Assembly (NCBI RefSeq): GCF_000772945.1
Contig: NZ_JPVN01000006.1
Coordinates: forward strand, 62,001-126,000
Origin: Ureibacillus manganicus DSM 26584
GTDB lineage: Bacteria; Bacillota; Bacilli; Bacillales_A; Planococcaceae
Direction: 5' to 3'
DNA length: 64,000 bases
A program made the translations under genes and the position numbers. This document shows, in pieces, positions 3,967 through 15,884 of this stretch. The notes under the pieces were generated by a model. That model was not told the origin of the DNA and did not search any database. It saw only the letters and a list, made by a program, of their open reading frames with translations. Position 1 is the first letter of the stretch. Each line of letters begins with the position of its first letter.

Positions 3967-4086
3967 TTATTAGTTACTTGTTCTACTGACGTAAAGATTC
4001 TGTAAAATTGTCCGAAATTATTTGTTTTTATTGGGTTCATTTCTTAGACTAGTAGTAAATACAGTAATTTGGGAGGTCATGTTCAT

Positions 4087-4626
4087 ATGAAGAGTATTGC
4101 AGTAGATATGGATCAAGTAATCGCGGACTTTATAGGAAAGGCATATAAGTCAGCAAATGAGAGATTCAATTTAAATATGACAAGAGAAAAGTTTGAAGTG
4201 ACTAAGTTGGACGTCGAGTACCCACATTTGGCTAAGGATTTCTTTTTAATGATTAACGAGCCAGATTTCTTCCGTGACTTTGAATTATTAGACCCAGATG
4301 CTGTTCCAGTGCTAAAAGAATTAAATGAGCATTATGAAATTTACATTGCAACAGCAGCAATGGATGTCCCTGGTTGCTTTAACGCAAAATATGAATGGCT
4401 ATTAGAACACTTCCCATTTTTAGATCCTAATCATTTCATATTCTGTGGGGATAAAAAGGTTGTTAAAGCCGATTTTCTAATTGATGACAATGTCAGACAA
4501 CTTCATTCTTTTACAGGTGAAGGAATTTTATATTCTCAAAAGTACAATGAACATTGTAATGATTTTAAGAGAGTGCGTAATTGGAAGGAAATTAAAGAAC
4601 TATTTTTACCAGTGCAATCAAAATAA
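4087..4626 (+). CDS. 5'(3')-deoxyribonucleotidase, NT5C type (HAD superfamily)
   Basis: The 179-residue product starts with MKSIAVDMDQV, whose DMDQV is the DxDxV nucleophile motif of HAD phosphatases in the NT5C family. FCGDKKVVKADFLIDDN near residue 118 supplies the C-terminal lysine and acidic metal-binding motifs. It should remove phosphate from (deoxy)nucleoside monophosphates in the cytoplasm. The ATG at 4087 is chosen because GGGAGG lies 10 bases upstream; the longer TTG frame would place the start inside that site. It sits alone between two terminators' ranges and ahead of the GntR gene. Confidence 0.8.
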   Translation: MKSIAVDMDQVIADFIGKAYKSANERFNLNMTREKFEVTKLDVEYPHLAKDFFLMINEPDFFRDFELLDPDAVPVLKELNEHYEIYIATAAMDVPGCFNAKYEWLLEHFPFLDPNHFIFCGDKKVVKADFLIDDNVRQLHSFTGEGILYSQKYNEHCNDFKRVRNWKEIKELFLPVQSK

Positions 4627-4659: not shown

Positions 4660-5364
4660 ATGGAACAAATTGAAGTGCGAGATTATTTAATTGAAAGTAT
4701 TCGTAAAAATAAAGATAAAGAGAATGCTAAACTGCCAAGTGAAAATGCATTAGCAAAAGAATTTTCTATTCCTAGAAAAAGAGTGCGAGATGCCTACATT
4801 TACCTAGAACAAATGGGCCTAGTCAAATCAAAACAAGGGGTAGGTCATTTCATCAAGCCTAAGCGAAAGCTGCTTGATATTGTGTTAACTGGAGATGTTA
4901 GTTTTAGCGAAAAAATGAAAAAACAAACAGATGATTATCGTTCAGTTATAACACGTTTAGAACAAATCGATCGAAATGATTCCTTATATCAGAATATAGA
5001 ATTTGAAGGTAGCGACATATTATATATTGTTGAAAGATTAAGATTTATAGAAGGTGAGCCAGCTGCTTTACATCGTTCCTATGTGAACGCAACAATTTTC
5101 CCAGATATAAAAAAAGAGCAAAATAAATTATCGTCTATTTATCAATTTTATAAGCTCAATGGTATTCGTGATTTTGAAAGTAAATTTACAAGATTATCAA
5201 CTACTTTTCCAGGTAAATATGAAAGACTGATGCTAGAATGTGAAAATCTAGTTCCTCTCATACAAGTGGAATCCGATAATTGGGACAAAGATCGACGAAT
5301 TCAATTAGAGTATACTGAAATTTTATATAGGAGCGACCGTTTTTCGTTCCAGCTAAATGGCTAA
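4660..5364 (+). CDS. GntR/UTRA family regulator, PhnF-like
   Basis: The 234-residue protein has an N-terminal winged helix (LPSENALAKEFSIPRKRVRDA, about residues 25-44, ending in a GVGHFIK wing) and a C-terminal UTRA effector domain (about 85-230, with YIVERLRFIEGEPAALHRSY). HutC/PhnF-type GntR regulators respond to small ligands. Its position immediately before the phn operon in the same direction suggests that it controls phosphonate use, although two hairpins separate its transcript from phnG. The effector cannot be read from the sequence. Confidence 0.8.
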   Translation: MEQIEVRDYLIESIRKNKDKENAKLPSENALAKEFSIPRKRVRDAYIYLEQMGLVKSKQGVGHFIKPKRKLLDIVLTGDVSFSEKMKKQTDDYRSVITRLEQIDRNDSLYQNIEFEGSDILYIVERLRFIEGEPAALHRSYVNATIFPDIKKEQNKLSSIYQFYKLNGIRDFESKFTRLSTTFPGKYERLMLECENLVPLIQVESDNWDKDRRIQLEYTEILYRSDRFSFQLNG

Positions 5365-5503: not shown

Positions 5504-5552
5504 GTGTTGAACTTGGCGACAAGATACATTTACGAAGAAGGGAGTGTTAATA

Positions 5553-5975
5553 ATGAACCGTGCATTACGAACAAAACTATTAATTGAAATAGGGCATAAA
5601 GAAGCATTGGTTATGGCAAACGAAATTGTTGAGCGCTATGAAGTTCAAGAAATCCAACCACCTAGACAAGGCCTTACAATGATCAAATTAAGAGAATCTG
5701 CAAAAAATTCTTTGTTTTATATAGGAGAAGTACTAATAACTGAAACGAAAGTGAAAGTCGGAAACAGCTTTGGTACTGGGATTGTTATGGAAGAAAACGA
5801 AAATTTATCTAGAGCTCTGGCCATTATTGATGCGGCTTATAAGGAGAATCTACCAGAGACAGTGGCCTGGTTACAGTTGCTTAAAGACCTTGAACAAAAA
5901 CTTCAATATGAAATGGAAAAAGTAAAATGCTCAATTGAGCGAACTAAAGTACATTTCGACACGATGAAAATTTAG
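5553..5975 (+). CDS. phnG: Phosphonate C-P lyase system protein PhnG
   Basis: The product of about 140 residues matches PhnG, a structural subunit of the PhnG2H2I2J2 C-P lyase core complex. Typical features are the RQGLTMIKLRESA stretch and the FYIGEVLITETKV segment. With PhnH and PhnI it acts in attaching the phosphonate to the C1 of ribose from ATP. The ATG at 5553 follows GAAGGGAG; a GTG three codons earlier is less well placed. It is the first gene of the long co-directional phn cluster, 11 bp before phnH. Confidence 0.9.
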   Translation: MNRALRTKLLIEIGHKEALVMANEIVERYEVQEIQPPRQGLTMIKLRESAKNSLFYIGEVLITETKVKVGNSFGTGIVMEENENLSRALAIIDAAYKENLPETVAWLQLLKDLEQKLQYEMEKVKCSIERTKVHFDTMKI

Positions 5976-5986
5976 GAGGGTTATAT

Positions 5987-6556
5987 ATGATTTTTCATAG
6001 CACTCAGCTAGCTTTTAGAGAAGTATTAGAAGCTTTATCTTTTCCAGGAAAGATCAATCTTGTAGATGAATGTCCATATGATATGTCTCCACTTATTTCA
6101 CAAACAGGACTTGTCTGTATGACTTTATTAGATAGTGAAGTCACATTTCATGTTTCAGACGACAATAACGAAATTACAAAAACGTTACATGCTTATACTG
6201 GAAGTCATACGATAGAGGCAAGTAAAGCAGACTTTATCATACTTCCATTATCAAGCTCGATGGGTGTGATATTAAATAAGCTTGAGCAAGCAAATATTGG
6301 GGACTTAGTAAGACCTCATAAATCCGCAACGATTATTTTTGAGGTGGAAAGTTTACAATCTGGATTTAAATATGATCTCAAAGGACCGGGTATAAAGGGG
6401 ACGAATTTTTTAAAGTGCACAGTTCAGCCGGAAATATTAAAGAAAAGAAATGAAATCAATAAAGAATATCCACTTGGAATCGACATGATTTTTATCGACC
6501 TGCAAGGGAATGTTGTGGGACTACCAAGAACAACGCAATTAACAGAGGTGATATAG
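5987..6556 (+). CDS. phnH: Phosphonate C-P lyase system protein PhnH
   Basis: The 189-residue product aligns in order and length with PhnH, the core subunit that dimerises and contacts PhnJ/PhnI in the C-P lyase complex. Recognisable stretches are the N-terminal TQLAFREVLEALSFPGKI and the LKGPGIKGTNFL region near residue 127. The gene is separated by 11 bp from phnG and touches phnI, whose ATG directly follows the phnH TAG stop. No catalytic residues are expected in PhnH. Confidence 0.9.
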   Translation: MIFHSTQLAFREVLEALSFPGKINLVDECPYDMSPLISQTGLVCMTLLDSEVTFHVSDDNNEITKTLHAYTGSHTIEASKADFIILPLSSSMGVILNKLEQANIGDLVRPHKSATIIFEVESLQSGFKYDLKGPGIKGTNFLKCTVQPEILKKRNEINKEYPLGIDMIFIDLQGNVVGLPRTTQLTEVI

Positions 6557-7648
6557 ATGGGTTACGTAGCAGTAACTGGTGGGAAGGAAGCAATCGAAGC
6601 ATCCCTTCAGCATTTATCTTATGAACGAGTGAAACATGGCAAATGGATTGACGTAGAGACGATTAAAGCGACAATGCGCGGTTTTTTAGATCAAGTCATG
6701 TCCGAAAGTAGTTTATATAGTGAAAATTTAGCCGCATTAGCAATGAAGCAGAGCGAAGGAAATGTAGAAGAAGCTGTTTTTCTATTGCGTGCACACCGAT
6801 CGACACTGCCAAGACTCTATTATTCTACTGTAACAGATCCTAGAGATATGTTTGTGCACCGTCGGATTTCTGCAAGTTTTAAAGATATTCCAGGTGGTCA
6901 AATACTAGGTACTTCCCATGATTATTTGCACCGGCTACTTGATTTTTCATTAGTTGATGAAACAGAGGAAGAAGTATTGCAAAAAAAGGCGGATTTTGAA
7001 GAAGTCGAAGTTCCAGAAGAAAGTTCCATCCCTTTAGAAAAGTTGCCAAAAGTCATGGATTATTTACGAGCAGAAGGGCTAATTAATGAATTCCCTGTAA
7101 ACGATGAAGAACCAGACGATGTTACGAAACTGAGTTTAACATTCCCGAGTAGCCGAAGTGAGCGACTTCAAATTTTAACTCGTGGACAAACGGGTGGCGT
7201 AGTTTCACTTGGGTATGCCGGTTTGCGAGGATATGGTTCTTCACACCCGAATGTAGGGGAAGTTCGAGTTGGCCTGCAACCGATTCATGTTCAACTAGAT
7301 GGAGACGATGAGGAATACTATATTGGCTCCATAAAGTTAACGGAGGTTGAGTCATTCATTCCTGCAAATGTCAGTGAAAATGGAAAAGAAGTGCTAGAGT
7401 TTGATATTGGTTATGGAGCATGTTTTGGACAAAACGAAACAAAAGCTATTGCGATGTCGATTTTAGATCATGCTCTTGAAAATCCAGAAAATACACCAAT
7501 TCATGATGAAGAATTTGTATTACTTCATGTCGATACAATCGAATCAACAGGATTTATATCACATTTAAAACTTCCACACTATGTTACCTTCCAGTCTAAG
7601 TTAGAGCAAATGAGAAAAATAAAAAAAGAGAGTGAGGCACGCAAATGA
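6557..7648 (+). CDS. phnI: Phosphonate C-P lyase system protein PhnI
   Basis: The 363-residue product matches PhnI, the nucleosidase-type subunit that, with PhnG, H and L, exchanges the adenine of ATP for the phosphonate to give ribose-1-phosphonate-5-triphosphate. Recognisable stretches are YVAVTGGKEAIEAS at the N-terminus, RAHRSTLPRLYYS near residue 78, RGQTGGVVSLGYAGLRGYG near 211, and FDIGYGACFGQNETKAIAM near 278. The last part (ESTGFISHLKLPHYVTFQS) is typical. It overlaps phnJ by 4 bp (ATGA), so the two are translationally coupled. Confidence 0.93.
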   Translation: MGYVAVTGGKEAIEASLQHLSYERVKHGKWIDVETIKATMRGFLDQVMSESSLYSENLAALAMKQSEGNVEEAVFLLRAHRSTLPRLYYSTVTDPRDMFVHRRISASFKDIPGGQILGTSHDYLHRLLDFSLVDETEEEVLQKKADFEEVEVPEESSIPLEKLPKVMDYLRAEGLINEFPVNDEEPDDVTKLSLTFPSSRSERLQILTRGQTGGVVSLGYAGLRGYGSSHPNVGEVRVGLQPIHVQLDGDDEEYYIGSIKLTEVESFIPANVSENGKEVLEFDIGYGACFGQNETKAIAMSILDHALENPENTPIHDEEFVLLHVDTIESTGFISHLKLPHYVTFQSKLEQMRKIKKESEARK

Positions 7649-8487
7649 GTAAATTCCCATTCGCATTTTTAGATGAACAATCCAAAAAGGAAATCAGACG
7701 TGCGGTGTTAAAGGGTGTCGCAATCCCTGGTTACCAGGTGCCATTTGCCTCTCGCGAAATACCAATTGGACGTGGTTGGGGTACAGGTGGTCTTCAGATT
7801 ACTCTTGCATTAGTAGGGCAAAACGACGTATTAAAAGTAATTGACCAAGGATCAGATGAGTCTGTTAACGCTGAAAATATTAAGAAACTAGTTCAAAAGA
7901 CAACAGGGATTGAAACAACCATTCATACAAGTGAAGCGACATTGATTCAATCGCGCCACAGAATCCCAGAAGTCCCATTAAGAAGTGATCAAATTATGAT
8001 TCTTCAAGTTCCAGAGCCAGAGCCACTAAGACATGTTGAACGTAGTGAGTTCAAAACTAAACAAATGCATGCAGAAAAAGAATATAGCGGTGCTTATTTG
8101 CTATTGTTTGAGCAAATTATGCGTTATGGACAAACGTCAGAGGGGGCCGACTATCCTGTTTATGTTCATAATCGATATGTTATGAATCCAAGTCCAATTC
8201 CTCGTTTTGATAATCCTAAAATCCATCAAAGTGATGCTTTGGTGCTATTTGGAGCTGGTCGTGAGAAGAAGATTTATGCAGTACCTCCTTATACAAATGT
8301 CGAATCACTTGCCTTTGATGATTATCCGTTTGAGGTAGAAGCATTCGAAGGAAAAGCATGTAAAGCAACAGGACTAACAAATGTATTCTTGGATGAGTTT
8401 ACAGATGAAGAAACTGGTGAAACGTACTATTTATGTAACGACACAAGCTATATGCAAGAGTACTTGGAACAGAAAAGAGGGATATAA
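7645..8487 (+). CDS. phnJ: PhnJ-like C-P lyase subunit lacking two canonical cysteines
   Basis: PhnJ of E. coli is the radical SAM subunit that splits the carbon-phosphorus bond of 5-phosphoribose-1-phosphonate. This 280-residue protein is clearly homologous: AIPGYQVPF around Gly29 (the E. coli Gly32 glycyl-radical site), GRGWGTGG, LIQSRHRIPE, and GAGREKKIYAVPPYT. In the C-terminal CX2CX21CX5C motif only two cysteines remain, Cys239 and Cys264, exactly 25 residues apart as in E. coli Cys241/Cys266. The positions of Cys244 and Cys272 are Thr242 and Met270 (ACKATG and LCNDTSYM). No other cysteine is present. The surrounding spacing is intact, so this is substitution rather than frameshift. Activity as a conventional C-P lyase is therefore uncertain. 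Confidence 0.88.
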   Translation: MSKFPFAFLDEQSKKEIRRAVLKGVAIPGYQVPFASREIPIGRGWGTGGLQITLALVGQNDVLKVIDQGSDESVNAENIKKLVQKTTGIETTIHTSEATLIQSRHRIPEVPLRSDQIMILQVPEPEPLRHVERSEFKTKQMHAEKEYSGAYLLLFEQIMRYGQTSEGADYPVYVHNRYVMNPSPIPRFDNPKIHQSDALVLFGAGREKKIYAVPPYTNVESLAFDDYPFEVEAFEGKACKATGLTNVFLDEFTDEETGETYYLCNDTSYMQEYLEQKRGI

Positions 8488-9327
8488 ATGCATGTAGAAC
8501 AACCGATTTTACAAATAAGAAACTTATCTAAGCAATACGGGGAAGGCTGTACGAATTGTTTGCAACCAAATGCAAAATTAGAAAAGAATTTCTGCCCAGT
8601 TTGTAAAACAGTATTTGCCTGTAAAGATGTGTCGATTGATCTTTATCGTGGAGAAATCTTAGGAATTGTAGGTGAAAGTGGCAGCGGTAAATCGACATTA
8701 ATGAAAAGCCTATATTTTGATGAAGAAGTAACTACCGGTGAAGGCTACTTAGAAGATTTCAATAATGGGTCACTTAATATATTTACGCAATCAGGACAAC
8801 AAAAAAGATATATTCGTAACTCGCTACTCGGAATGGTTTACCAAAATCCAATGCTCGGGTTAAAGATGAGCTTTTCATCTATTAGTAATATTGCAGAAAA
8901 ACAAATCGCAGCTGGGAACAGACACGTTGGGCATATGGTAAGTCGAAGTAATGAGCTACTAGACCAAGTGAATATCCCTTTGAAAAGAAGTAAAGAGCCA
9001 CCGAAAAACTTCTCTGGTGGGATGCAGCAACGTGTACAAATAGCCAAGGCCTTATCTAGTAACCCACCAATATTATTACTAGATGAAGTGACAACAGGTT
9101 TAGATTTATCTGTTCAAGCCTCAGTCCTGGATCTAATTAAAACTATACAAAGAGAACTTCAAATTTCAATGATTGTTGTATCGCATGATTTAGCGGTTAT
9201 CCGAATGTTAGCAGACCGCACGATTGTTATGTTAAATGGTCAAATTATCGAGCAAGGCTTAACCGACCAAATTTTAGAAGACCCGCAACATGCATATACT
9301 CAACAGCTTGTGTATTCGCTACTTTAA
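8488..9327 (+). CDS. phnK: PhnK ABC-type ATPase of the C-P lyase complex, with cysteine-rich insertion
   Basis: The 279-residue ATPase has Walker A GESGSGKST (residues 62-70), signature FSGGMQQRV, Walker B ILLLDEVTTGLD and the switch histidine in VSHDLAV. PhnK docks on PhnJ in the core complex and, with PhnL, drives its opening. Between the first strand and Walker A there is an insertion with Cys21, Cys24, Cys36 and Cys39 (CTNC and CPVC), resembling a zinc ribbon or cluster site and absent from E. coli PhnK. Its ATG follows the phnJ stop codon directly. Dipeptide-type ABC ATPases are the nearest look-alikes, but position and the following phn genes decide. Confidence 0.88.
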   Translation: MHVEQPILQIRNLSKQYGEGCTNCLQPNAKLEKNFCPVCKTVFACKDVSIDLYRGEILGIVGESGSGKSTLMKSLYFDEEVTTGEGYLEDFNNGSLNIFTQSGQQKRYIRNSLLGMVYQNPMLGLKMSFSSISNIAEKQIAAGNRHVGHMVSRSNELLDQVNIPLKRSKEPPKNFSGGMQQRVQIAKALSSNPPILLLDEVTTGLDLSVQASVLDLIKTIQRELQISMIVVSHDLAVIRMLADRTIVMLNGQIIEQGLTDQILEDPQHAYTQQLVYSLL

Positions 9328-9346: not shown

Positions 9347-10522
9347 ATGTACATTTTGACAAATGGAATTATTGTAACTGAGCATGAAATGTTAATAAAT
9401 CATGCTGTAGTAGTTGAGAATGATATTATTACAAAAATTATTCATGAAAATAGAGTGGAAGAATTTAAAGAGGGGAAAATAATCGACGCAAAAGGTGGAT
9501 TTATTACTCCTGGATTTGTTGATATTCATTCTGACTATATAGAAACGATTTTGTCGCCTCGTCCAAGTTCAATCATGGATGTGAATCTTGGATTAAGAGA
9601 AAGTGAGCGTATTTTAGCAACTCATGGAATTACAACAATGTTTCATTCTCTTTCTTACTATGGAGATGACAAATTTTCACATAAAGCGATTCGTAATCCT
9701 GAGAATGTGCAAAAAATTGTAAATGCCATTCATGAATCACATGATTCAAAACATTTAATTCGCCATCGACTACACGCTCGATTTGAAATTGATTGTATCG
9801 ATCAAATGCCTATAATCATTGAAAATATCAACGACAATAAAGTGCACCTACTTTCCTTTATGGACCATACTCCTGGCCAAGGTCAATATCGAAATCTAGA
9901 AACCTATAAGGGGATAATGCTAGGTTACCGTGATATGACGGAAGAAGAACTGGATGGAATTATTGAAGAACAAATGGATAAAGACAAAATCACTTTTAAA
10001 GATATCGAAAGAATAAGTAAGCTAGCCATTGAGCGAAACATTGCAGTTGCCTCTCATGATGACGATGAAATTGAAAAGTTAAAGCTTGTTCAATCATACG
10101 GAACAACAATTAGTGAATTTCCAATTACTCTTGCAGTTGCAAAAGCAGCAAAAGAGCTTAACCTTCATACTATCGCAGGGGCACCAAATATTCTATTAGG
10201 TGGTTCTCATACGGGTAATTTAAGCGCGGCAGAAGCAATTCGAGAAAGAGTAATAGACATTATTTGTAGCGATTACTATCCACCAGCTATGCTCCACGGC
10301 ATCTTTGAGATGTATAAAAATTATAATGAGGATCTACATTATTTATTCCAATTAGTGACGATTAACCCTGCCCGTGCAGTTAATTTGGGAGATGAATTAG
10401 GGTCTATCGAAGAAGGTAAAAAGGCGGATCTCTTAGTCATTGAACAGATGGATGATGGATTCCCAATTATTACATCTACTATGGTAGATGGAAAACTAAT
10501 TATGCAAACAAATTACCGTTAA
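9347..10522 (+). CDS. phnM: Ribose-1-phosphonate triphosphate diphosphatase PhnM
   Basis: PhnM removes pyrophosphate from alpha-D-ribose-1-alkylphosphonate-5-triphosphate to give the 5-phosphate substrate of PhnJ. The 391-residue amidohydrolase-fold protein carries the metal-binding GFVDIHSDYIE (near residue 57), FMDHTPGQGQY, ASHDDDEIE (near 246), GAPNILLGGSHTGNLSA (near 281) and IICSDYYPPAML. The ATG at 9347 follows AAAGAGGGAAG; an upstream in-frame start would overlap phnK. The order here is K-M-L, unlike K-L-M in E. coli. Confidence 0.93.
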   Translation: MYILTNGIIVTEHEMLINHAVVVENDIITKIIHENRVEEFKEGKIIDAKGGFITPGFVDIHSDYIETILSPRPSSIMDVNLGLRESERILATHGITTMFHSLSYYGDDKFSHKAIRNPENVQKIVNAIHESHDSKHLIRHRLHARFEIDCIDQMPIIIENINDNKVHLLSFMDHTPGQGQYRNLETYKGIMLGYRDMTEEELDGIIEEQMDKDKITFKDIERISKLAIERNIAVASHDDDEIEKLKLVQSYGTTISEFPITLAVAKAAKELNLHTIAGAPNILLGGSHTGNLSAAEAIRERVIDIICSDYYPPAMLHGIFEMYKNYNEDLHYLFQLVTINPARAVNLGDELGSIEEGKKADLLVIEQMDDGFPIITSTMVDGKLIMQTNYR

Positions 10523-10538: not shown

Positions 10539-11237
10539 ATGATTCAAGTTGAGAATTTGCAAAAGGAATTTAAGATCCACCATATAAATAAAACTTTACA
10601 CGCCATAAATGATATTTCCTTTACAGTTGAGAAGGGGAACTTTTTGGGGATTGTCGGAAAAAGTGGTAGTGGAAAATCTACCATTCTTAAAAGTATTTAT
10701 GGTACTTATAAACCGCAAAGTGGCGCAATCTACTATAATTCAGAATCCTTTGGGAAAATTAATTTAGTGTGTGCATCACCGCGTGAAATCCTATATTTAC
10801 GTAAATATGAAATTGGCTATGTATCTCAGTTTTTATCTGTGATGCCCCGAACAACAGCACTTGAACTAGTCGAGCAATCCTTGCTTGAGACGGGTGTGAG
10901 TTTTGAGGAAGCACACGAGGAAGCTGTGAGCACTTTGAAACATTTTGATTTAGATGAGTCACTTTGGAATAACTATCCGAATTACTTTTCTGGTGGGGAA
11001 AAACTTCGTCTAAACATAGCGAGAGCTGTCGTAAAAAAGCCAAGATTATTACTTTTAGATGAACCAACAGCTAGTTTAGATAATACTTCAAAGGTGAAAG
11101 TACGCGAATCCATTGAAAAGTTAAAAAATCAAGGGACTACATTAATCGGTATTTTTCACGATTTAGAGTTTATGGAAGGATTATGTGATGAAGTTTTTAC
11201 AATGCAAAAAGTGGTGGTGAATTCAATTGAAACTTGA
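10539..11237 (+). CDS. phnL: PhnL ABC-type ATPase of the phosphonate pathway
   Basis: The 232-residue ATPase has Walker A GKSGSGKST (about residues 40-48), signature YFSGGEKLRLNIARA, Walker B LLLLDEPTASLD and the histidine in GIFHDLEFM. PhnL acts with PhnG, H and I in coupling the phosphonate to ribose and binds PhnK in the dual-ATPase complex. No membrane partner of its own is present, in keeping with a non-transport ABC protein. AGAGGGGG precedes the ATG. The end overlaps the PHP-domain gene by 11 bp. Confidence 0.9.
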   Translation: MIQVENLQKEFKIHHINKTLHAINDISFTVEKGNFLGIVGKSGSGKSTILKSIYGTYKPQSGAIYYNSESFGKINLVCASPREILYLRKYEIGYVSQFLSVMPRTTALELVEQSLLETGVSFEEAHEEAVSTLKHFDLDESLWNNYPNYFSGGEKLRLNIARAVVKKPRLLLLDEPTASLDNTSKVKVRESIEKLKNQGTTLIGIFHDLEFMEGLCDEVFTMQKVVVNSIET

Positions 11238-12042
11238 CCTCCATTTGCATAGCACTTTCTCTGATGGCGCGGATACATTAGAAGTTCTATTTGAAATGGC
11301 AAAGAAAAAGGGATTAACCCATATTAGTATCGTGGACCATGATACAACACGACATGTTCAACCGGCAAAACTACTGGCTGAAGAATACGACATAAGGTTC
11401 ATCCCAGGAATTGAAATTTCTGCTTATGATTTTAAACGTAATCGTAAAGTGCATATCCTTGGCTATGATTTCCGAGACGAAACGCCCCACATTGATGCAA
11501 TATGTACACAACTTTTAGACAGAAGACATCAGCATTCATTATGGCAATTAGAAAAAATCCAACAAGCAGGATTAAATCTTCAGCTAGAATCGGCTATGAG
11601 TTACGTTACTGATGGTGGAATTTTATATAAGCAACATATTATGAATGCTTTGACCGATGCACCATTCAATTCAGTTGTATACCAAACACTCTATCGCAAT
11701 TTGTTTAAAGGTGATGGTGTTGCGAAAGGGGATATTACATATGTTGATGCCTTTAAAGCTGTAGAAGCAATTCGTGCTGATGGTGGATATGCTGTTCTTG
11801 CACATCCAGGGCAACTAGACTCCTTTGATATAGCTGAAGAATTAGTTCCAGTTGGTTTAGGCGGTATCGAAAAAATTCATCCAGATCACACGTTGGGACA
11901 AGTGAACCGAATTGTAAATATTGCAAATACTTATGAGCTATTTACAACCGGGGGCTCTGATTATCACGGTAGGTATGGCGCGGTTTCGGTAACAGATGAA
12001 TATTCTTTACAAAATGTTAAGAATATCCCATTTATTAAATGA
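11227..12042 (+). CDS. PHP-domain phosphoesterase, probable PhnPP (cyclic phosphate dihydrolase)
   Basis: The 271-residue product is a PHP-domain phosphoesterase with metal-binding motifs DLHLHSTFSDG (residues 4-14), SIVDHD, GIEISAYD, LAHPGQ and GGSDYHG. In Eggerthella lenta a PHP protein next to the phn genes, PhnPP, converts the PhnJ product 5-phosphoribosyl-1,2-cyclic phosphate to ribose 5-phosphate and phosphate. No phnP, phnN or phnO gene is visible in this cluster, so this protein is the natural candidate for the last step. The start is TTG with GGTGGTG upstream. The specific activity is inferred from family and context. Confidence 0.75.
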   Translation: MKLDLHLHSTFSDGADTLEVLFEMAKKKGLTHISIVDHDTTRHVQPAKLLAEEYDIRFIPGIEISAYDFKRNRKVHILGYDFRDETPHIDAICTQLLDRRHQHSLWQLEKIQQAGLNLQLESAMSYVTDGGILYKQHIMNALTDAPFNSVVYQTLYRNLFKGDGVAKGDITYVDAFKAVEAIRADGGYAVLAHPGQLDSFDIAEELVPVGLGGIEKIHPDHTLGQVNRIVNIANTYELFTTGGSDYHGRYGAVSVTDEYSLQNVKNIPFIK

Positions 12043-12157: not shown

Positions 12158-13249
12158 ATGAACAAAAAGTTATTAACACTGCTTTTCATAAGTGTTTTAG
12201 CAGTACTTGCTCTAGTAGGTTGTGGTGCACAGGAAAATGGCAACACATCTAACAACACAGATTCGAAATCTGGATCTGCTAACGAAGGAAAAAAAGCTGA
12301 TACATCAAAAATTACGGTAGTTTGGTATCCAAACGAATCAGGTAATGAATTAAAAGGATCACGTGATGCTCTAGGTGCATTAATTAAAGATGCAACTGGT
12401 CGTGAAGTAGAACATAAATTAACAACTGACTATGCAATCGCAATTGAAACAATTGCAAACGGAAATGCACATGTTGCTTTCATGGGTGCTCAAGGATATA
12501 TCGAAGCAAATAACAAAAGTAAAGACGTACAAGCATTAGTAGTACCTTCTGGTAAATCTGGTACATTAGATGACGCAGTTTACTATAGCTGGTTAGCAGT
12601 TCCTAAAGACAAAGCAGAAGAATATAAAACAAACGGTGAGTTTGACGTAGATAAAATTGCTGGAAAAAGATTTTCATTCGTTTCAGCTTCATCAACTTCA
12701 GGTTTTAAAGTACCTTCAACATCAATCATTAGTCACTTTGGTGCACAAGAAGAGTACAAAGATTTAACTGCAGAAGATCTAGCAGAACCAAATGCATTAT
12801 TCCCAGAAGTATTATTTGGTGACTCTCACCAAGGTTCAGCTGTAAACATGTTAATGGAGCGTTCTGATGTATCTGCTTTCTGTGATACTTGTGTAAACAA
12901 TTATGTTGAAGTAGTTGAAGGTAAGGCAAATACAGTTGGTGCTGTTTACCGTGTGAAAGATGATGCAGAAGCTCCATTCAATAACTTAGTAGGAAAAGAG
13001 TTTGTTTTAATTTCAGTAACACCAGTATTAAATGCGCCATTCGTAGTAAATGAATCAGTACTAACAGCAGATGAAATCGCTGCTATTGAAAAGGCATTTA
13101 CTTCAGATGAAACAGCTAATAATGAAGAAGTCTTCGTTCCAAAAGGTTCTGACACAAAAGGTTTATTTAGTAAATCAGATGGTGGAAATGAGAGATTTGT
13201 AAGTGTTGAAGACGAATGGTTCGATCCAATTCGTGACCTTTCAAAATAA
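12158..13249 (+). CDS. phnD: Phosphonate/phosphate-type ABC transporter binding lipoprotein PhnD
   Basis: The 363-residue product has a lipoprotein signal with Cys22 in LVGC, an Asn/Ser/Thr-rich linker, and a PhnD-like periplasmic-binding fold beginning KITVVWYPNESGNE. Typical segments are HVAFMGAQGYIEA and FSFVSASSTSGFKVPS. It should capture alkylphosphonate at the outer membrane face and hand it to the PhnE permeases. A 115-bp gap with a good GAGGGAGA site separates it from the PHP gene, and no terminator is visible in the gap, so the importer may be read from the upstream operon as well as from its own promoter. Phosphite or phosphate ligands cannot be excluded. Confidence 0.9.
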   Translation: MNKKLLTLLFISVLAVLALVGCGAQENGNTSNNTDSKSGSANEGKKADTSKITVVWYPNESGNELKGSRDALGALIKDATGREVEHKLTTDYAIAIETIANGNAHVAFMGAQGYIEANNKSKDVQALVVPSGKSGTLDDAVYYSWLAVPKDKAEEYKTNGEFDVDKIAGKRFSFVSASSTSGFKVPSTSIISHFGAQEEYKDLTAEDLAEPNALFPEVLFGDSHQGSAVNMLMERSDVSAFCDTCVNNYVEVVEGKANTVGAVYRVKDDAEAPFNNLVGKEFVLISVTPVLNAPFVVNESVLTADEIAAIEKAFTSDETANNEEVFVPKGSDTKGLFSKSDGGNERFVSVEDEWFDPIRDLSK

Positions 13250-13295: not shown

Positions 13296-13383
13296 AAATA
13301 TAGATCGTGTGGCCATTTAAAGTTTTCAAGTAGTGATTATTAGGGTTGCAATTAATGAGAGCCTAAATAAAGGAGTTTTGACA

Positions 13384-14223
13384 ATGCCGACAATTCTAGC
13401 TGAAAAAACTGAGGTTTATGAAAAAAAGGGTAAGAATAAAAAAGAGTTTCAAAATAGCAAAACAATACTAAAAATTAAAGACTTATATAAAAGCTATAAC
13501 ATTAAAACACCTGTCCTTTCAATGATCGAAATGGAGTTAAAGCAAGGTGAGTTTGTTTCTATTATCGGCCCATCTGGTGCTGGAAAATCTACTTTGCTTC
13601 GCTGTATTAACCGAATGATTGAACCATCCGAAGGTAGTATTGTGTTCGATGAAACTGAAATAACATCATTAAGTAAAAAAGCATTGCGTGGCGAACGAGC
13701 TAAAATCGGTATGGTATTCCAACACTATAATTTAGTCTCTCGCTTAACTGTATTTGAGAATGTTTTACACGGTCGTTTTGGTTATAAATCAACGCTAAAA
13801 GGAATATTAAGCATTTTTACGGAAGAAGAAAAACAGTTAGCCCTTGAAATTCTAGATAAGTTAGGTATGAAGGAATTTGCTTACAAGCGTTGTGATCAGC
13901 TTAGTGGCGGTCAAAAACAACGTGTCGGGATTGCTCGTGCATTAGTTCAACAGCCAAAACTACTACTTTGTGATGAGCCAATTGCTTCACTCGATCCGAA
14001 CTCATCAAAGGTTATCATGGATCATTTAAAAGAAATTTGCGAAACAATGGGAATTACAGTTCTTGTTAACTTGCACCAAGTTGATGTTGCAGTGAAATAT
14101 TCAGATCGTATTATTGGGCTAAATAAGGGTCGTGTTGTTTTTGAAGGACTTCCAAAGGAATTATCAAACTATGCAATTCAGGATATTTATGGCTCTGAAT
14201 TGGAAGACTTGATTGTCGAATAG
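13384..14223 (+). CDS. phnC: Phosphonate ABC transporter ATP-binding protein PhnC
   Basis: The ATPase has Walker A GPSGAGKST (about residues 64-72), Q-loop MVFQHYNLV, signature LSGGQKQRVGIARAL, Walker B LLLCDEPIASLDP and the histidine in VNLHQVDVA. The LASLDP/HQVDVA region is typical of PhnC. AAAGGAG at 13370 supports the ATG at 13384, which leaves a lysine-rich N-terminal extension of about 30 residues before the core domain; a later start is possible. It energises the PhnD-PhnE importer. Confidence 0.9.
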   Translation: MPTILAEKTEVYEKKGKNKKEFQNSKTILKIKDLYKSYNIKTPVLSMIEMELKQGEFVSIIGPSGAGKSTLLRCINRMIEPSEGSIVFDETEITSLSKKALRGERAKIGMVFQHYNLVSRLTVFENVLHGRFGYKSTLKGILSIFTEEEKQLALEILDKLGMKEFAYKRCDQLSGGQKQRVGIARALVQQPKLLLCDEPIASLDPNSSKVIMDHLKEICETMGITVLVNLHQVDVAVKYSDRIIGLNKGRVVFEGLPKELSNYAIQDIYGSELEDLIVE

Positions 14224-14235
14224 GAGGGGCAAGAA

Positions 14236-15027
14236 TTGAATGCACAATTTGATGTAATTAAGAAAAAGAGAATTCAAATGACTATCATTTTACTAGTCAT
14301 GCTCCTAATCGTATTTGGTGCTAAAGTTTTAACTGATTTTAGCTTCATGGAAGGATTAGCATCTATTCCTGGTACGGTTTTTTGGATGTTTACAAATTTA
14401 ATACCAACAGCAGAAGCGATGGAGAATTTCCCGAAAGTGATGGAGCGTTTGTGGGAAACAATCATACTTTCCATTTTAGCAACGACCACTGCGGGAATTT
14501 TTGCTTTATTCTTTGCTTTATTTGGATCAAAAACAACGAAAATTAATGGATTACTTGCATTACTATCTAGGGTGATTGCATCAGTCTTCCGTAATATTCC
14601 TGTCGTAGCATGGGCATTGGTGCTTGTTATTTCTTTTGGGCATAATGTTGTAACTGGTTATTTCGCTCTTTTCTTTACAACTTTTGGATTTTTAGTACGT
14701 GCATTTATGGAAACGATTGATGAAGCAAGTACGGATTCCGTTGAAGCATTAAATGCAACTGGGGCAACTTATTTCCAAATGGTATTTAGAGGGGTAATTC
14801 CTGATACATTGCCGCAAATGTTAAGTTGGGTATTTTTCATGATTGATACAAATATTCGTAGTGCTACTTTAGTAGGGTTATTAACTGGAACGGGTATTGG
14901 TTATATTTTTGATTTGTATTATAAGCGTCTAGATTACCCAACGGTTGGACTAATTACACTTAGTATTATTGTTGTGGTCATTGTGATTGAACTTATTTCA
15001 AATAAGGTAAGGAGGATGATTTTATAA
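14236..15027 (+). CDS. phnE: Phosphonate ABC transporter permease PhnE, first copy
   Basis: The 263-residue membrane protein has a hydrophobic N-terminus and a BPD_transp_1 permease core. The cytoplasmic coupling loop reads EALNATGATYFQMVFRGVIP near residue 173, the EAA-type signature that contacts PhnC. The start is TTG with TAGGAGGGG nine bases upstream. The stop overlaps the ATG of the second permease by one base (TAATG). Two different PhnE subunits probably form a heterodimer. Confidence 0.9.
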   Translation: MNAQFDVIKKKRIQMTIILLVMLLIVFGAKVLTDFSFMEGLASIPGTVFWMFTNLIPTAEAMENFPKVMERLWETIILSILATTTAGIFALFFALFGSKTTKINGLLALLSRVIASVFRNIPVVAWALVLVISFGHNVVTGYFALFFTTFGFLVRAFMETIDEASTDSVEALNATGATYFQMVFRGVIPDTLPQMLSWVFFMIDTNIRSATLVGLLTGTGIGYIFDLYYKRLDYPTVGLITLSIIVVVIVIELISNKVRRMIL

Positions 15028-15884
15028 TGCAAATTTCAGAAATAGCTTCTTCCACGACTAGTAGCATAAAAGTGCGAAATGGGAAGATACAGATTAAAAC
15101 CTTTAATCGTTCGAATTTTGTACTTCAGCTAACACTAGCCTTTTTAATCATTTTTACAGTAGTGGCACCATTCTTTTTAGATTATAAGTCCATTGATTTA
15201 CAAACAGCGATTTTCTATACAGTAGATAATTTAAAAATGATGTTTTTACAACCTGCTCTAAATCAAATTACAATTGGTACGGCGTTAATCCAAATATTAA
15301 TCACATTAGCATTAGCGTTTTTATCAACAGTTATTGGTGCTGTAATTTCCTTTTTCTTAGCAATCGCTTGTGCGAAAAACTTAGCTCCAACTTGGCTTTC
15401 AAATACTATCATTACATTTAATTCTTTCATTCGCGCAGTCCCTACAGTGCTTTGGGTGTTGATCTTTGCAATTGTTGCTGGACTTGGGAGTGTAGCTGCA
15501 ATTCTTGGTATGACCCTTCATACTATTGCTTATTTATCAAAAGCTTACTCAGAGTCATTTGAAGAAATTGATGGAGGCATGATTGAAGCATTGCGTGCTA
15601 CTGGGGCGAAATGGTGGCACATTATTGTTCATGTTGTCCTACCGCAAACTTCTTCTTACATGATTTCATGGACATTCTTACGATTTGAAACAAATTATGG
15701 AGTTGCCATAGCAATGGGTGCAGCAGCTGCAGCTGGTGGTATTGGTTTCGAATTATTTATGTCTTCTAGTTTCTACTACGATTTACATGAAGTAGGTGCA
15801 ATAACTTACTTCGCATTAATCATTGCATTAATTTTAGAGGTAATTTCAGTCCAAATAAAAAATCGCTTAATTGGTTCAAGATAA
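15027..15884 (+). CDS. phnE: Phosphonate ABC transporter permease PhnE, second copy
   Basis: The 285-residue permease has about six membrane helices and the coupling loop EALRATGAKWWHIIVHVVLP near residue 190. It is clearly related to the preceding permease but divergent, so the pair is an old duplication typical of Gram-positive phn importers. The N-terminal 25 residues are hydrophilic. A strong terminator follows and closes the phosphonate island. Confidence 0.9.
   Translation: MQISEIASSTTSSIKVRNGKIQIKTFNRSNFVLQLTLAFLIIFTVVAPFFLDYKSIDLQTAIFYTVDNLKMMFLQPALNQITIGTALIQILITLALAFLSTVIGAVISFFLAIACAKNLAPTWLSNTIITFNSFIRAVPTVLWVLIFAIVAGLGSVAAILGMTLHTIAYLSKAYSESFEEIDGGMIEALRATGAKWWHIIVHVVLPQTSSYMISWTFLRFETNYGVAIAMGAAAAAGGIGFELFMSSSFYYDLHEVGAITYFALIIALILEVISVQIKNRLIGSR

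Follow-up and report, generated by a model that had tools for sequence, protein, structure and literature searches.

The phn operon of Ureibacillus manganicus DSM 26584 encodes a PhnJ with only two cysteines (Cys239 and Cys264, counted in the translation of 7645-8487), and this protein belongs to a subfamily, hereafter Cys-poor PhnJ, in which the equivalents of E. coli Cys244 and Cys272 are jointly lost in every member. In the scheme proposed for E. coli PhnJ, a [4Fe-4S] cluster is held by Cys241, Cys244 and Cys266, and the radical attack is made by Cys272 (PMC7916636). E. coli PhnJ is described as being of the radical-SAM type, with a C-P bond cleavage that depends on SAM. Judged from their residues, Cys-poor proteins cannot run this scheme of a Cys241/244/266 cluster and a Cys272 thiyl radical as it is written. 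We lean, by a modest degree, towards regarding the enzyme as a functional C-P lyase of the Cys-poor type, in which the C-terminal metal site would be dispensable. The window analyzed here is a stretch of 64,000 nucleotides (contig NZ_JPVN01000006.1, positions 62,001 to 126,000 of the forward strand); all coordinates refer to it unless an accession is given.

The phn operon and its PhnJ

The operon is complete in the window, as an earlier sequence-only reading had claimed, and runs phnF-G-H-I-J-K-M-L-PHP-D-C-E-E with all genes on the plus strand; its gene content equals that of related canonical operons, i.e. those whose PhnJ retains all four cysteines. The first gene, phnF, encodes a GntR/UTRA regulator (4660..5364, assigned by profile match) and is followed by phnG (5544..5975) and phnH (5987..6556), both over their NCBIfam cut-offs, and by phnI (6557..7648). 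Downstream of phnJ (7645..8487) lie phnK, encoding an ABC ATPase (8488..9327; 214 bits versus an NCBIfam PhnK cut-off of 303), phnM, encoding RPnTP diphosphatase (9347..10522, the second start codon of the open reading frame being taken), phnL (10539..11237, over the NCBIfam cut-off) and a gene for a PHP-family hydrolase (11227..12042). The hydrolase is nearest to phosphoribosyl cyclic phosphate diphosphodiesterase, at a score under the curated cut-off, and by sequence is a likely substitute for PhnP; with it, the core set of a C-P lyase (phnGHIJ with phnK, phnL, phnM and a PHP hydrolase) is present. The transporter part consists of a phnD-like gene for a substrate-binding protein (12158..13249), named from its position and its synteny with an annotated Mesobacillus operon, a phnC-like ATPase gene (13333..14223) and two phnE-like permease genes (14236-15027 and 15027-15884). 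In the window genus, a gene for an NT5C-type 5'-nucleotidase (4069-4626 in the window) lies upstream of phnF, and such a gene was not found beside the phn operons of other genera.

The window PhnJ matches the Pfam PhnJ profile (PF06007) with 452 bits against a cut-off of 25 (positions 2-273 of 275). Residue equivalences were assigned by a gap-aware alignment with the solved E. coli PhnJ chains and the PhnJ of the MG1655 record. Cys239 (codon TGT, 8359..8361) corresponds to E. coli Cys241 and Cys264 (TGT, 8434..8436) to Cys266, whereas Cys244 is replaced by Thr242 (ACA, 8368..8370), leaving the E. coli-type cluster triad incomplete, and Cys272, the residue of the radical attack on phosphorus, by Met270 (ATG, 8452..8454). 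The sequence-only reading had already described the two cysteines and the Thr/Met pair, which the translation, the DNA codons and the alignment all bear out. It had also recognized the radical glycine, and Gly29 (codon 7729-7731) indeed aligns with E. coli Gly32. E. coli numbering is used below for residues compared across proteins.

An AlphaFold2 model of the window PhnJ (pLDDT 83, with the C-terminal hairpin and helix blocks at about 79-87) aligned with E. coli PhnJ (7z17_D) at a TM-score of 0.89 over 277 columns (about 275 residues), predicting that the protein has the E. coli PhnJ fold with the C-terminal domain included. Ordinary glycyl-radical enzymes (PFL and class III RNR) were not among the fold matches of this model.

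Distribution, selection and origins of Cys-poor PhnJ

Across Bacillota, alphaproteobacteria and plasmids, 54 distinct Cys-poor and 132 distinct canonical PhnJ sequences were collected. All four cysteines were present in 132 of 132 canonical sequences, indicating that their loss is not chance variation, and no PhnJ with three of the four was found among the 186 distinct sequences. Together with the invariable joint loss of Cys244 and Cys272, this fits a metal site that is dropped as a unit. In the Cys-poor proteins, position 241 was always Cys and position 244 always Ser or Thr (54/54 each), whereas position 266 varied widely (C19, T19, V8, M3, I2, L2, A1) and position 272 was Met, Gly, Ala or Leu (M39, G11, A3, L1). 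The Thr/Met pair that the sequence-only reading took for the whole change is therefore real as a pair but incomplete as a description, since Cys266 has also gone in close relatives and in 35 of the 54 proteins overall. Many Bacilli members have no cysteine in the aligned protein other than the Cys241 equivalent.

With types written as the residues at positions 241-244-266-272, Cys-poor PhnJ occurs in five genera of the window family (CTCM, CTTM and CTCL), in two other families of Bacilli (CSTM and CSAM), in alphaproteobacteria (CSVG, CSIG, CSLG, CSMA and CTIG) and on plasmid pVV8 of Thermus thermophilus HB8 (CTVM). Within the window genus, phnJ was found in 9 of 25 genomes, of which 8 carry the Thr/Met type and one (G046) the canonical type. 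Two phnJ genes, those of L127 (G158) and L225 (G838), contain an in-frame TAG and are apparently pseudogenes or assembly errors. T. thermophilus HB8 has long been studied in the laboratory. Its Cys-poor operon is plasmid-borne (phnJ L258, NC_017767.1 23470-24351), and pVV8 has reportedly been lost from many laboratory stocks (PMC7694296), so that plasmid-bearing and plasmid-free T. thermophilus HB8 may already exist.

In four alphaproteobacterial genomes, whose completeness is unstated, the only phnJ found was Cys-poor. At least one other PhnJ accompanies the Cys-poor protein in the alphaproteobacteria carrying L189 (G629) and L190 (G607) and in G1169, G1218, G1261, G1284, G1327 and G1330, G1169 having as many as five PhnJ matches; such coexistence in one genome suggests a division of labour. 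Ten of the 14 distinct alphaproteobacterial Cys-poor proteins (L189, L190/L228, L229-L234, L259 and L260) bear Cys33 directly beside the radical glycine (PGCQ replacing PGYQ), and this residue may represent a thiol that has moved.

Sequencing error and gene decay, both considered by the sequence-only reading, fail as explanations. The same residues recur across separately assembled genomes of eight species of the genus, U. manganicus among them, and of four further genera, so the Thr/Met type is not a sequencing error, and the window genome, which is 99.99% complete, holds one phnJ and no second, canonical copy. The window phnJ is under strong purifying selection: pairwise dN/dS, a rough ratio here because dS is near saturation in many pairs, came in the window clade to about 0.05 (PhnJ core) and 0.09 (C-terminal domain), versus 0.04 and 0.11, respectively, in canonical relatives. 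Although reputedly essential residues are missing, the low dN/dS, the complete operon and the recurrence of identical residues in many independent assemblies refute a decaying gene or a wrong sequence, to which we assign a negligible probability.

All catalytic-site residues that were checked are retained. Gly32, Arg107, His108 and Gln124 of PhnJ were invariant in 186 of 186 distinct sequences (54 Cys-poor and 132 canonical), every Cys-poor protein has loop 47-50, and the Zn ligands contributed by PhnI to the E. coli complex, His219, His328 and His333 (PMC9947105), were invariant in the aligned sets. All of these elements of the PhnI/PhnJ Zn-substrate site (PMC9947105) are found in the window proteins. 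Around the lost ligands, the window clade has hydrophobic or fixed residues (Leu246, Leu/Val/Met265 and Met272), a pattern that fits replacement of the metal in its C-terminal domain by packing. No compensating PhnJ substitutions shared by both Cys-poor lineages met the cut-offs (a first indication at position 169 was not borne out), and no replacement Cys or His common to both was found in PhnG, PhnH, PhnI, PhnL or PhnM; His19 and His305 of PhnI are specific to the window family clade and missing from the alphaproteobacterial set.

Phylogenetic analysis favoured two independent losses, one in Bacilli and one in Thermus plus alphaproteobacteria. In a tree of the PhnJ core, from which the C-terminal domain was left out, the Thermus and alphaproteobacterial proteins formed one Cys-poor clade (98/96) apart from Bacilli, and in a tree of concatenated PhnI, PhnJ core and PhnK all Bacilli Cys-poor proteins fell into one clade (SH-aLRT 98). 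Forcing all Cys-poor PhnJ into a single clade cost 27 log units, by which a single origin is marginally disfavoured (AU p 0.059). Within Bacilli, Cys266 was either lost after Cys244 and Cys272 in part of the clade or lost independently more than once.

Proposed mechanism of a Cys-poor C-P lyase

In E. coli structures a distance of about 30 angstrom separates the cluster cysteines from Gly32 (PMC9947105; PMC7916636), so that the cluster/Cys272 scheme is already at odds with the structures, and partly over this distance the mechanism has been termed an unresolved conundrum (PMC9947105; PMC7916636). For the Cys-poor proteins we infer that they cleave C-P bonds, that they have no cluster and that Cys239 plays a role. 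The C-terminal PhnJ domain would lack the four-cysteine metal site and be held by ordinary packing, with the shared active machinery intact, namely the PhnI/PhnJ Zn-His site, Arg107, His108, Gln124, loop 47-50 and Gly32. Read most economically, C-P cleavage would then call for the Zn site together with Gly32 and for no more than a single thiol of PhnJ, that of Cys241. Any PhnJ thiol taking part would have to be Cys239 of the window protein, because its equivalent is the sole cysteine always present, and this candidate sits in a C-x-x-Ser/Thr motif. Retention of Cys241 could also be due to folding rather than to chemistry, and the frequent Cys33 of the alphaproteobacterial proteins implies that the acting thiol may differ between lineages. 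The canonical four-cysteine site would be an accessory metal site (structural, assembly or regulatory) that some lineages have dropped. In its fullest form, with C-P lyase chemistry in general placed at the Zn site with Gly32 and Cys241, no PhnJ-bound cluster or Cys272 involved and the E. coli site a dispensable metal knuckle that has disappeared from at least two bacterial lineages, we put this forward tentatively, as a reading with roughly one chance in three. The product would probably still be the ribose cyclic phosphate, since the site residues are invariant and PhnM and the PHP hydrolase are present.

The sequence-only reading had asked whether another protein supplies ligands, and a cluster or radical provided in trans, either by the PhnK cysteines or by a separate activase, would let PhnJ operate as a simple glycyl-radical enzyme that relies on a single glycine and a single cysteine. 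Ordinary glycyl-radical enzymes have their radical installed by a separate activase, Gly32 is retained in all Cys-poor PhnJ, and the PhnK of the window has four additional cysteines, in an insert after the A-loop tyrosine (CTNC...CPVC, 8548-8604) that looks like a metal knuckle. However, this CxxC...CxxC insert occurs across Bacillota with both canonical and Cys-poor PhnJ and in Haloarcula, whose PhnJ is canonical, whereas E. coli and Nostoc, both with canonical PhnJ, lack it, as do the Cys-poor operons of Thermus and alphaproteobacteria. Ligand supply by PhnK is thus unsupported, and PhnK was ruled out as a donor, because the insert follows taxonomy and not PhnJ type. The PHP gene, proposed as a second correlate, likewise showed no association with PhnJ type across the operons compared, and the operon comparison revealed no additional gene common to Cys-poor operons. 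A Fer4_12 Pfam search, which activases of other families would escape, recognized no NrdG/PflA-like glycyl-radical activase in the window genome; it gave one weak match (E 7e-5) of a kind present across the genus, and strong matches came only from two congeners, both without phnJ. We therefore consider provision in trans unlikely.

Equally unlikely, in our estimate, is that the complex does other chemistry in which a cluster is unneeded, such as a reaction that involves no radical or one on a special substrate. The absence of cysteines named as essential would be explained in this way, and the presence of Cys-poor and canonical operons in the same alphaproteobacteria might reflect a division of substrates between them. 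This reading is countered by the invariance of every PhnI/PhnJ catalytic-site residue checked, by the retention of PhnM and of a PHP hydrolase that most resembles cyclic-phosphate diphosphodiesterase, and by the finding of no PhnJ other than the Cys-poor one in the window lineage and in the four alphaproteobacterial genomes. Cys239 and Cys264 might instead still bind a cluster, perhaps [2Fe-2S], with other ligands, and both are indeed retained in the window and most of its closest relatives; but Thr stands at position 266 in relatives of the same family (L125 and L126), and in two other Bacilli families Cys241 is the only one of the four left, in each case with the remaining domain conserved, which makes a residual cluster quite improbable.

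C-P lyase breaks down many phosphonates and is a source of methane in oxic waters (PMC9947105; PMC7916636). Either its textbook mechanism is incomplete or the Cys-poor enzymes work differently, and natural enzymes that lack the cysteines and are otherwise unchanged make it possible to test directly which residues are required for the chemistry. In the open-access literature searched we found neither growth or activity data on any Cys-poor C-P lyase nor a report of Cys-poor PhnJ, which may have been noticed earlier elsewhere. One marine phosphonate-gene survey kept only sequences with residues judged essential (PMC9381506); surveys that filter in this manner may throw out real C-P lyases. Structural work in air might be easier with cluster-free, single-cysteine complexes.

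Comparison with known systems

The proposed passing of a radical from glycine to cysteine is shared with ordinary glycyl-radical enzymes such as PFL and class III RNR; they differ in having their own separate activase, of which the Fer4_12 search recognized none in the window genome. Among Cys-poor proteins, those of alphaproteobacteria and Thermus (L190, L229-L238, L258 of pVV8, L259 and L260) likewise have Cys241 and Ser/Thr at 244 and lack Cys266 and Cys272, but they form a separate clade, their PhnK has no cysteine insert and, in alphaproteobacteria, most have gained Cys33 beside Gly32. Canonical Bacillota PhnJ proteins, such as those of Neobacillus niacini (L003), Clostridium vincentii (L002) and the congener G046 (L082), are about 69-72% identical to the window protein, and their operons show the same core gene order and the same PhnK four-cysteine insert; the difference is that all four PhnJ cysteines are retained there. 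The reference system remains the PhnGHIJKL C-P lyase of E. coli (PhnJ NP_418522.1; PDB 4xb6, 7z15-7z19), from whose PhnJ the window protein differs by the loss of Cys244 and Cys272, and its relatives also by that of Cys266, whereas the two are 54% identical over the full length and share the predicted fold, the operon partners, the PhnI Zn histidines and, in PhnJ, Gly32, Glu41, loop 47-50, Arg107, His108 and Gln124.
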